Positions 1,626-9,755 of a stretch of DNA of 21,279 nucleotides are shown in pieces. The position numbers were made by a program, and so were the translations under genes. The notes below the pieces were generated by a model. It was not told the origin of the DNA and ran no database searches. It saw only the letters and a program-made list of their open reading frames with translations. Source of the stretch: a virus; the IMG/VR virus record IMGVR_UViG_3300004369_000183, positions 1-21,279 of that record; one strand, written 5' to 3'. Every line of letters begins with the position of its first letter. Positions within the stretch are counted from its first letter, which is position 1.

Positions 1626-1650
1626 AAAAAAAGCCCCGGATGTGGGGCTT
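1626..1650 (-). terminator. Leftward Rho-independent terminator
   Basis: Read on the - strand, AAGCCCC (1650-1644), a 6-base loop (1643-1638) and GGGGCTT (1637-1631) form a perfect 7-bp stem followed directly by Ts down to 1626, giving an unbroken run of seven T. On the + strand the hairpin is followed by ATAGTTG, so it should end leftward transcription only. Its orientation shows that something is transcribed leftward from between 1650 and about 2115, which matches the promoter at 1785-1756. Confidence 0.8.
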
Positions 1651-1654
1651 ATAG

Positions 1655-1683
1655 TTGATAACGAGGGGGAGAGTGTATATTAT
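1655..1683 (+). promoter_or_regulatory. Rightward sigma70-type promoter facing the small RNA
   Basis: -35 TTGATA (1655-1660), a 17-bp purine-rich spacer and -10 TATTAT (1678-1683) each match the consensus at five of six positions with ideal spacing. Transcription would start near 1690 and run through the inverted repeat at 1686-1749, the two 36-bp repeats and the multi-hairpin leader into the gene at 2116. This is the best promoter I see for the replication operon. It faces the leftward promoter at 1785-1756. Confidence 0.55.
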
Positions 1684-1755
1684 AACGAATCGGCTGGGTT
1701 GACGACCCATAAGCAGCCGGGAAACTAGGAACCAGCTCCGACCGATTCGGGGCGA

Positions 1756-1785
1756 ATTGTACCAAGCCTTCCCAGACTGTTTCAA
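1756..1785 (-). promoter_or_regulatory. Leftward promoter with extended -10 for the small RNA
   Basis: On the - strand, -35 TTGAAA (1785-1780), an 18-bp spacer and -10 TACAAT (1761-1756) are preceded by TGG, which gives an extended -10 element. Transcription would start at about 1749, exactly where the 8-bp closing stem of the candidate small RNA begins. Confidence 0.6.
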
Positions 1786-1820
1786 GTCAAATCCCACCCC
1801 AATATATGGTGTTTTTTAGT

Positions 1821-1907
1821 AGTGACCTACTCAACTGCTAGTCGAAAGACGTTAAATCGGTGTTAATTGGCAGTGACCTACTCAACTGTCAGTCCCAGGA
1901 CGTTAAA
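1821..1907. repeat. Two 36-bp direct repeats, 51 bp apart
   Basis: Copies at 1821-1856 and 1872-1907 share the first 17 bases (AGTGACCTACTCAACTG) and end alike in GACGTTAAA. Five of 36 positions differ. Three of the differences fall in the four bases between GTC and GAC, which read GAAA in copy 1 and CCAG in copy 2, so the 3-bp GTC/GAC stem is kept while its loop changes. The pair lies between the leftward promoter and the multi-hairpin leader. Binding sites for a regulator, or repeated RNA elements in the leader, are both possible. Confidence 0.7.
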
Positions 1908-1927
1908 CAAAAAATCCAAGCTCTGAC

Positions 1928-2085
1928 CCGCCCTGTCAACTTGGCCCATGAGACCCCGCAAGGGGAGCGATTCACTACAGGAAGTAGTGCCACGTTATGT
2001 GGGGGGGAACACTTAGTACCTGCACAGTAGTGCACTGCCACCGGCAGACATGAGTACCGGATAAGCTCATGGGGGAAAAGGGCGG
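1928..2085 (+). promoter_or_regulatory. Multi-hairpin leader upstream of the RHH gene, possible RNA switch
   Basis: Six local hairpins stand almost back to back: CCCC-GCAA-GGGG (1954-1965, GNRA loop), CACTAC/GTAGTG (1973-1989), CCAC/GTGG (1990-2002), TGCAC/GTGCA (2021-2034), CTGCC/GGCAG (2035-2047) and CATGAG/CTCATG (2049-2071). CCGCCC (1928-1933) can close the whole region with GGGCGG (2080-2085). CCCATGAG (1945-1952) can pair over 8 bp with CTCATGGG (2066-2073), which competes with the last local hairpin. The region ends 30 bases before the ATG at 2116 and holds no convincing gene. It could be a leader RNA controlling translation, a separate RNA or an origin structure. No known riboswitch is recognised. 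Confidence 0.55.
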
Positions 2086-2115
2086 AGTTGTGTCTGAAAT
2101 TTAACAGGGGGAAGT

Positions 2116-2712
2116 ATGCCAAAACGAGTAACCAGCTACAGTCCGAGGTCCAAGTTTGCTCCAGATGGTTATAGAAGGATAAGCGCCAACCTGAAATTCG
2201 GCATTTATTGCAAGCTAAAGATGCTCACAGTAGCTACACGCAAGCCAGCCGGGGTAATCCTGGAAGAGTTAATCGCCGACTACGGTGACCAAATTAAACC
2301 GCTAGACAATGTCATATCAATAGAGGATGAAACAATGAGGACACTTGATAATTTTGTTGATGTTAGTAATGCACGAAGAAAAGCAGTACCAAAGACCAGC
2401 GACCCGAACACTATGGCGCTGAACAGGAACCTGAAATCAGCAAGCCTGAATATCACGCTGGGCGCAGACGTACTCTCAGCCGCCGGACTACGCGAGGGGG
2501 ATAATGTCTCACTACTATTAAACGGGCGGGAAGCTGCGATTGTCCGGGGTGGTAACCGGAAATTGAAGCGTTGCTACTCACAACTGAAGGTGGATTTTCC
2601 CAAAGTCCTACTGGTAGACCAGAGTACGCGGTTCCAGCCTACCATTGAAGGCGGGGTGATCTACTTTGATGTGCCTGAATCGGTTGAAATCAACCAGGAA
2701 TTAGTCCCATGA
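2116..2712 (+). CDS. Two-domain DNA-binding regulator: RHH-like N-terminus, AbrB-like C-terminus (198 aa)
   Basis: ATG at 2116 follows a GGGGGAAG site. Residues 21-56 have the ribbon-helix-helix (CopG/Arc type) pattern: a strand RISANLK, a helix GIYCKLKMLTVA, a turn around RKPAG and a second helix VILEELIADY. Residues 110-144 (SLNITLGADVLSAAGLREGD onward) have the spacing of a SpoVT/AbrB swapped-hairpin domain, with the usual GLxxGDxV core. The two are joined by a polar linker. This architecture would be a dimeric DNA binder, plausibly the repressor or copy-control protein of the operon it heads. It follows the structured leader and overlaps the next gene by 4 bases. Both domain calls are pattern matches by eye; the RHH call is the stronger one. 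Confidence 0.65.
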   Translation: MPKRVTSYSPRSKFAPDGYRRISANLKFGIYCKLKMLTVATRKPAGVILEELIADYGDQIKPLDNVISIEDETMRTLDNFVDVSNARRKAVPKTSDPNTMALNRNLKSASLNITLGADVLSAAGLREGDNVSLLLNGREAAIVRGGNRKLKRCYSQLKVDFPKVLLVDQSTRFQPTIEGGVIYFDVPESVEINQELVP

Positions 2713-3553: not shown

Positions 3554-3581
3554 TTGCACAATACCTTGAATGTAGTATAGT
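3554..3581 (+). promoter_or_regulatory. Internal rightward promoter for the recombination genes
   Basis: -35 TTGCAC (3554-3559), 16-bp spacer and -10 TATAGT (3576-3581) lie just after the stop at 3553. The -35 is identical to that of the promoter at 179. Transcription would start near 3588, leaving a leader of about 20 bases with AGGAGG-type ribosome binding before ATG 3608. The leader contains ATAACCAAACG, which also occurs at 716-726 before the gene at 738. Confidence 0.5.
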
Positions 3582-3607
3582 GCGACCATAACCAAACGGG
3601 AGGAGTT

Positions 3608-3865
3608 ATGCGAAATACCAAATTAGTTAACGATTTTCTTTTTGACGAGTATCAAGAGGTTGAGGCAGATCGGATAGAGGACGGGTGTAAGTTAAACACA
3701 CTTCAAATGGCCCTTGACGACCCCACAGATACCTTGATTCACCTATTGGCTAACCGCCAGGATGCTGAAGCAGGCAGAATTATCAGGGAAATGCTGGCTG
3801 AATATATTGATTATGAGTTGTGGAGGAAGGACGTTCATTCAATTCCGGGGAGGAAACTAGCATGA
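3608..3865 (+). CDS. Unknown acidic early protein (85 aa)
   Basis: ATG at 3608 is preceded by a strong GGGAGGAG site. The protein is acidic and mostly helical, starting MRNTKLVNDFLFDEYQEVEA, with LIHLLANRQDAEAGRIIREM near residue 43 and EYIDYELWRKD at about 66. No nuclease, membrane or DNA-binding motif is visible. It is the first gene behind the internal promoter and its TGA overlaps the next ATG by ATGA. The position before the recombination genes suggests a link to DNA metabolism, but the sequence gives no function. Confidence 0.65.
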   Translation: MRNTKLVNDFLFDEYQEVEADRIEDGCKLNTLQMALDDPTDTLIHLLANRQDAEAGRIIREMLAEYIDYELWRKDVHSIPGRKLA

Positions 3866-9286: not shown

Positions 9287-9348
9287 TGGCCCGTGACGGA
9301 CATCCTATTAACGGGCAATTCTCAGGTTCTGATCGGGCCACCCAATGA
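9286..9348 (+). CDS. Possible 20-codon micro-gene linking to ninG
   Basis: ATG at 9286 overlaps the previous stop as TAATG, and its own TGA overlaps the ninG start as ATGA. The peptide is MARDGHPINGQFSGSDRATQ-like in composition: polar, without a hydrophobic segment. Its likely role is to carry ribosomes from one gene to the next, since ninG has no strong separate ribosome-binding site. It could also be a real micro-protein. No homologous family is recognised. Confidence 0.35.
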   Translation: MARDGHPINGQFSGSDRATQ

Positions 9349-9755
9349 AGACATTAAGAAAAAGAGTAGATGATTTAGCCGTAGCCATGCAGAAGCTGGT
9401 GAGGTTAAAGGAAGCCGTTCAGAATGACGGGTACTGTAAGTGCGTCTCCTGTGGGATTGTTAAACATTGGAAGGAAATGGATGGGGGACATTACATCTCT
9501 CGTAACCACCAGTCTACCAAAGTCCTGGAGGAGAACATCCACCCCCAATGTAAGGGGTGTAATTTAAAATCAGGCAAGGGGGATACTCTTGTTAACATTC
9601 ATTACAGGAATTGGATGATTGAGTTCTACGGCGAGGAGTTCGTAGAGGAATTGGAGATTCTAGCAAGGAAACCAGCCGACCATTTCGGGCCGGATATTGA
9701 AGATCAGATAAAAGAGGTAAAGGCAAAATGCAAAGAGTTGCAAAAGTTATTATGA
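9345..9755 (+). CDS. ninG: NinG/Rap recombination endonuclease (136 aa)
   Basis: The treble-clef nuclease signature is complete: C33-x2-C36 in CKCVSCG, DGGHYISR at residues 46-53, NIHPQC (64-69) and GCN (71-73). This matches lambda NinG (Rap), a structure-specific endonuclease for Holliday junctions and D-loops. The C-terminal IHYRNWMIEFYGEEFVEELE segment fits the family. At 136 residues it is shorter than the lambda protein, which has a longer N-terminal part. Start ATG 9345 overlaps the micro-gene stop. Together with Sak, exonuclease and NinB it completes a full phage recombination set. Confidence 0.85.
   Translation: MKTLRKRVDDLAVAMQKLVRLKEAVQNDGYCKCVSCGIVKHWKEMDGGHYISRNHQSTKVLEENIHPQCKGCNLKSGKGDTLVNIHYRNWMIEFYGEEFVEELEILARKPADHFGPDIEDQIKEVKAKCKELQKLL

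Follow-up and report, generated by a model that had tools for sequence, protein, structure and literature searches.

Phage RNAs that block phage ribosome-binding sites, short phage RNAs with promoters of their own, and phage RNAs that act in trans are all known already. The c4 RNA of phages P1 and P7 is a small folded RNA whose loops are complementary to sequence around the ant ribosome-binding site, and it blocks translation (PMC12197685). The OOP RNA of lambda is short, has its own promoter, and is transcribed against the early genes (PMC12197685). The sar RNA of P22, also small, base-pairs with an mRNA of the phage and disturbs translation initiation (PMC12197685). VpdS (VP882) and PreS (lambda) are phage-encoded, Hfq-dependent RNAs that act in trans on mRNAs encoded elsewhere (PMC12197685).

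The small RNA considered here is previously undescribed, and belongs to a group of uncultivated bacterial viruses. It was identified in a virus record of 21,279 bases (the whole stretch analysed, hereafter the window), in which the early half is read rightward and the structural half leftward. To our knowledge, covariation supports the fold of few small RNAs from uncultivated phages, and a predicted target that co-varies with the RNA is rarer still.

This leftward three-way-junction RNA is probably an antisense regulator that works in trans, repressing an early phage gene via the ribosome-binding site of that gene. The transcription unit, its fold, and its co-variation with a start region all rest on sequence comparison; production of the RNA, repression by pairing, and timing are what we infer. 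An extended -10 promoter would direct host RNA polymerase to make a leftward RNA about 125-170 nt long. The 5' half of this RNA would fold into a three-way junction, at or next to +1, to form a stable and possibly protein-binding 5' head. The 3' half would contain a C-rich element (located in most relatives in the loop of a hairpin, P5) and then an intrinsic terminator. Translation of an early phage mRNA from elsewhere in the same genome would be blocked when the C-rich element pairs with the Shine-Dalgarno region of that mRNA. In six relatives, this mRNA would be that of a gene for an acidic protein of 131-133 aa, in the adjoining operon on the right side; the window's branch is without this gene, and there the target would have changed.

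Transcription unit and fold

The sequence-only reading that drew attention to the locus had described a leftward promoter and a leftward terminator framing about 125 nt that hold no gene, on the strand opposite all nearby genes. Promoter and terminator are present as claimed (Table 1), and the adjoining genes are indeed rightward. The unit sits between ORF 1320-1550 and ORF 2116, and overlaps no target gene on the other strand. A 62-codon ORF on the minus strand (1609-1797) does overlap it. However, indels of 1 nt and 2 nt break this frame in the closest relative, L002, so that it is not a conserved gene; minus-strand coding was rejected, and the interval stands as free of genes. The unit has its own promoter, its own terminator, and no gene inside, as expected of a phage small regulatory RNA. 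The surrounding interval (1550-2130) contains two promoter-like sites, compared with 0.4 +/- 0.7 in shuffled sequences.

Table 1. Features of the locus and of its candidate targets (window coordinates, except where a contig is named)
Feature	Position	Strand	Details
Leftward extended -10 promoter	1756..1785	-	TTGAAA-18-TACAAT, with extended -10 TG
Small RNA, about 124 nt	1626..1749	-	start inferred at 1752-1749
Three-way junction	1686..1749	-	each of P1, P2 and P3 shows compensatory changes; matches to model R1 confined to family members
C-rich unpaired element CUCUCCCCCUCG (candidate pairing region)	1662..1673	-	hairpin P5 in six relatives
Leftward intrinsic terminator	1626..1650	-	AAGCCCC-ACATCC-GGGGCTT + T7
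Rightward promoter-like site	1655..1683	+	TTGATA-17-TATTAT; faces the small RNA promoter
Two copies of a 49-nt hairpin unit	1808..1856, 1859..1907	+	adjoins the leader
Rightward structured leader RNA, 192 nt	1908..2099	+	precedes the early operon; separate family from the small RNA
Candidate target: ribosome-binding site and start of ORF 2116-2712 (AACAGGGGGAAGUAUG)	2101..2118	+	core UCCCCCU:AGGGGGA, -18 to -20 kcal/mol
Candidate target: start region of ORF 3608-3865	3580..3612	+	by analogy with L002; duplex -15.6 in the window
Predicted target gene in L138	8280-8672	+	homologues in the other five P5 phages

Homologues of 126-170 nt are present in seven further distinct IMG/VR phage contigs. 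The family thus has eight distinct members: the window, L002, L138, L139, L141, L143, L144, and L232 (a ninth locus, in L142, carries a small RNA identical to that of L141 and was not counted separately). L002 is a close relative that keeps the unit with unchanged -35 and -10 hexamers; differences within the RNA are confined to loops and linker, and gene 1320-1550 is absent. A search pattern built from the tandem hairpin unit at 1808-1907 led to L138, L139, L141, L142, L143, and L144; one further contig that it matched, L140, was judged a chance hit. A pattern built from the leader led to L232, and to a second group of contigs (L225-L231, L233-L235).

All eight members keep the promoter, its spacing, the junction, the C-rich element, and the terminator at the same place. 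The -35/-10 pair, with a spacing of 17-18, occurs in each (p 0.00-0.04 each) and lies 5-6 nt before P1, the outer stem of the junction. The sequence-only reading had predicted a transcription start at the first base of the 8-bp stem in P1. The terminator closes the unit in every case, with its T-run on the leftward side only. Genes to the left vary from phage to phage, which suggests that the small RNA unit is kept for itself. The earlier judgement that so complete a unit is hard to ascribe to chance gains from these seven contigs, which keep all of it with compensatory changes.

Nor was the RNA recognised as a known phage RNA, and the databases bear this out: searched at gathering and at relaxed thresholds, Rfam gave no matching family, c4, tracrRNA, and phage RNAs included. 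The best weak match, to tracrRNA, reached 16.9 bits against a threshold of 70 (E 4.7) and was taken as chance. A covariance model of the junction (R1) matched the nine family loci at 69-94 bits, and matched nothing besides these among 186 sources (1.7 Mb). A cultured phage collection contained no DNA relative of the locus, and 160 loci from relatives of Erf and the exonuclease contained no further copy of the small RNA.

The proposed fold, an 8-bp stem enclosing two further stems, is likewise present. A U.G pair (1741/1694) lengthens the 8-bp stem (1749-1742/1693-1686) to give P1 (1749-1741/1694-1686), which surrounds P2 (1739-1732/1720-1713) and P3 (1709-1705/1699-1695); an unpaired linker and the terminator hairpin follow. 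Folding energy for the 126 nt of the minus strand is -39.2 kcal/mol, compared with -27.5 +/- 3.2 for shuffled sequences (z -3.68; 1 of 200 shuffles folds as well). The plus strand, with a z of only -1.05, folds no better than shuffles.

Compensatory changes among relatives had been proposed as the check on this fold; the check was run and passed, with double changes in each of P1, P2, and P3. In an automatic alignment of the junction, 96.3% of cells are paired, and five pairs have changes on both sides. The covariation score is 0.309, compared with 0.165 +/- 0.022 in shuffles (0/500) and at most 0.087 in slid controls. With manual registration of P2, the minus-strand RNA has 217 of 222 helix cells paired and the plus strand 194, since U.G pairs in the former are C.A in the latter. 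The sequences of the P2 and P3 loops raised the possibility of a contact between them (GCAA with UUGC), but it fails in the window, L002, and L143.

Preservation of the junction in 8/8 members, and of GCUA in the P3 loop in 7/8, would also be expected if the RNA worked mainly through its junction, by binding a host or phage protein, with the C-rich tail as a generic anti-Shine-Dalgarno stretch. That account is very improbable, as it leaves unexplained why the tail matches one gene in a phage-specific way (see below).

In six of the eight members, two additional hairpins occur in the 3' half. The loop of P4 is A/U-rich, and that of P5 is C-rich (ACUCCCUU, UCCCUU, UCUCCU, or UUCC). In each hairpin the two arms covary, the C-rich loop of P5 is retained, and P5 is positioned directly before the terminator inside the conserved leftward unit. 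The window and L002 instead have a short linker in which CUCUCCCCCUCG or CUCUCUCCCUCG is unfolded. C-rich loops ahead of the terminator suggest pairing with Shine-Dalgarno regions.

Features elsewhere in these records were also noted. L143 contains a Type II hammerhead ribozyme (9298-9362, minus strand; Rfam RF02276; 38.8 bits, above threshold) with an intact core. In the window, a short array of CCTATACGCT-like repeats in 11-nt steps (74-150) lies upstream of the first small gene; stretches 48-98 and 161-240, which overlap or flank this array, are conserved in L002. A small rightward ORF (2709-2936) matches sigma-70 region 4 (Pfam PF04545, E 2e-9), and L002 has a different gene at that place.

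Predicted pairing with an early gene

In all six P5-bearing phages, P5 is complementary to the ribosome-binding site of one early gene, 1.4-2.8 kb to the right of the small RNA. This predicted target encodes the acidic protein of 131-133 aa (MSELERYIKENINQY...), which has no family match and, for the 131-aa protein, no relative among cultured phages; its predicted structure is of low confidence (pLDDT 60) and was not used.

Compared across these phages, the 3' half of the small RNA co-varies with the start region of this gene, through three independent pairing classes only: differences in P5 are accompanied by differences in the target ribosome-binding site. In L143, UCUCCUGAUU in the RNA stands opposite the start region AAUCAGGAGA; the match, of 10 bp, is perfect and covers the ribosome-binding site. 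In L232, CCCUUGUAU stands opposite AUACAAGGG, a perfect 9-bp match, again over the ribosome-binding site. In L138, L139, and L144, UUGUUG and CUCC(C) in the RNA stand opposite CAACAA and (G)GGAG. Net of the cost of opening both partners, core pairing amounts to -10.6 kcal/mol in L143 and -4.4 in L232, and only -1.1 to -2.4 kcal/mol in the remaining four, the class A phages. The best whole-linker duplex in L232 lies partly outside the ribosome-binding site. L142 has a diverged copy of the 131-aa gene to the left of the small RNA, with a start region unmatched to its RNA (-8.2).

For every shared gene family, duplex energy on the same start region was compared between a phage's own RNA and the RNAs of other phages. 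The 131-aa gene, first spotted by eye in the same data later used for this test, has a cognate advantage of 4.96 kcal/mol, compared with 1.13 for the runner-up among families found in four or more phages. Among all 30 families, the second-highest value is 3.25, in three phages only. The largest advantage over families in 300 seed shuffles was 3.96, below that of the 131-aa gene, and the true assignment of RNAs to phages ranks best of 24. With the whole linker, the advantage becomes 8.87 versus 2.24 for the next family, and, in the comparison with shuffles, 9.49 versus a shuffle maximum of 6.87. A common target in the gene immediately following the leader was considered and rejected, the pairing being inconsistent between phages.

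Complementarity to a minus-strand RNA is equally a similarity between two plus-strand stretches. The C-rich stretch and the 131-aa start region might accordingly be alike as binding sites, in DNA or RNA, for one phage protein, and P5 is palindromic, as operators often are. This explanation is nonetheless improbable. P5 belongs to a conserved leftward transcription unit and immediately precedes its terminator, and its arms change together around a C-rich loop that is kept, which is more in keeping with an RNA hairpin than with an operator.

The 131-aa gene was looked for in the window and in L002, and is absent from both; the target in the window's phage is therefore uncertain. Two candidates are listed in Table 1. 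For ORF 2116, the cognate advantage over other phages' RNAs is 5.6 with the short seed and -0.5 with the whole linker. The second candidate derives from L002, in which the best-scoring start region is that of ORF 5178 (-18.9), the homologue of window ORF 3608. The start regions of ORFs 6700, 2116, and 1320 in the window equal or exceed that of ORF 3608 in score, and none is singled out.

ORF 2116-2712 encodes a protein of 198 aa that matches no family. The L002 version is 95% identical, and none was seen in the other relatives. By eye, the first part of the protein resembles a ribbon-helix-helix regulator. No relative was found in cultured phages or host genomes.

If regulation by trans-acting pairing is true, an early phage gene is kept in check by a phage RNA dedicated to it, and the two evolve together. 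The P5 hairpin and the 131-aa gene start region, from L143 or L144, would then make a short testable pair.

A neighbouring rightward leader

The small RNA and the rightward leader adjoin in every member of the small RNA family. The leader is a second undescribed structured RNA family, with a wider range: it occurs in L225-L235, L138-L144, L232, L002, and the window. Across 13 distinct sequences from two phage groups, 96.5% of cells are paired, 14 of 34 pairs have changes on both sides, and covariation is 0.343 versus 0.110 in shuffles; the signal is weaker on the reverse strand. No Rfam family matched. In host genomes, the leader pattern occurs at nine loci; the three examined lack the rest of the element and lie in apparent host genes, and were rejected.

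The leader ends just 5' of the ribosome-binding site of the first gene, and this gene differs between phages. Control of the whole operon, for example by antitermination, fits this arrangement better than control of one gene, and is the function that we infer. Each 49-nt hairpin unit beside the leader has the loop GACCUACUC, followed by GUC-NNNN-GAC-GUUAAA. The stem of copy 2 shows compensatory changes in L002, and six other contigs have a single copy.

Group 2 contigs share the leader without the three-way junction of the small RNA. At the corresponding place, some 60-260 nt upstream of the leader, six of them (L226, L227, L228, L230, L233, L234) carry another leftward RNA-like unit. It comprises a hairpin (CAGGGUUG/CAACCUUG), in which the loop varies and a G.U pair favours the minus strand; a stretch reading CCACCUC or CCCCCUC; and a terminator.

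The rightward promoter-like site faces the promoter of the small RNA, so a rightward transcript from it would be antisense to the small RNA head. This brings in the main rival to trans-acting repression, namely cis control of the leader. Here the small RNA, or opposing transcription from its promoter, would govern the rightward leader and the early operon, much like RNA I/RNA II in ColE1 or OOP/cII in lambda, with the whole small RNA complementary to the rightward transcript. The two promoters stand face to face in the window and L002, where the rightward site is strong; no rightward terminator was found between the left genes and the leader; and the two RNAs are neighbours throughout the small RNA family. 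However, the rightward site is weak in the other six members (p 0.05-0.30), and the leader also occurs without the junction, in group 2. Cis control would, moreover, leave unexplained both the U.G pairs that favour the minus strand and the co-variation with a distant start region. We consider it unlikely, although control in cis and in trans could both be true.

A broader possibility, tentative and on balance doubtful, is that the trans-acting junction RNA and the back-to-back leader jointly decide expression of the early operon, as an undescribed RNA-only control region. Such a region would cover both the reading and the translation of the early (replication, recombination) operon, and the small RNA would switch targets upon gene exchange.

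Comparison with known phage RNAs

The phi29 packaging RNA is built around a three-way junction, as is the RNA described here. Unlike it, the present RNA has an intrinsic terminator, and it has no Rfam match. A phi29-type packaging RNA was set aside, since these phages have a terminase gene of the ordinary kind.

OOP RNA is leftward and has a terminator. Both it and the present RNA are short phage RNAs with their own promoters and a direction opposed to the early genes. However, OOP is antisense to cII and acts through RNase III, whereas the present RNA overlaps no gene and has a conserved fold.

Like sar, the present RNA is a small phage RNA predicted to pair with a phage mRNA at its translation start; sar is a cis antisense of its target, whereas here the RNA and its predicted target are at separate places. 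Action on an mRNA encoded elsewhere, again predicted, is shared with VpdS and PreS. The target of PreS is a host gene, in contrast to the phage gene predicted here.

With c4, the likeness is that of a folded phage RNA complementary, here by prediction, to a ribosome-binding-site region of the same phage. The c4 RNA and its target share one transcript, with c4 immediately upstream; the present RNA has its own promoter and terminator on the opposite strand, and its predicted target is 1.4-2.8 kb away. A member of no Rfam family, the small RNA is by its mode of action closest to c4.
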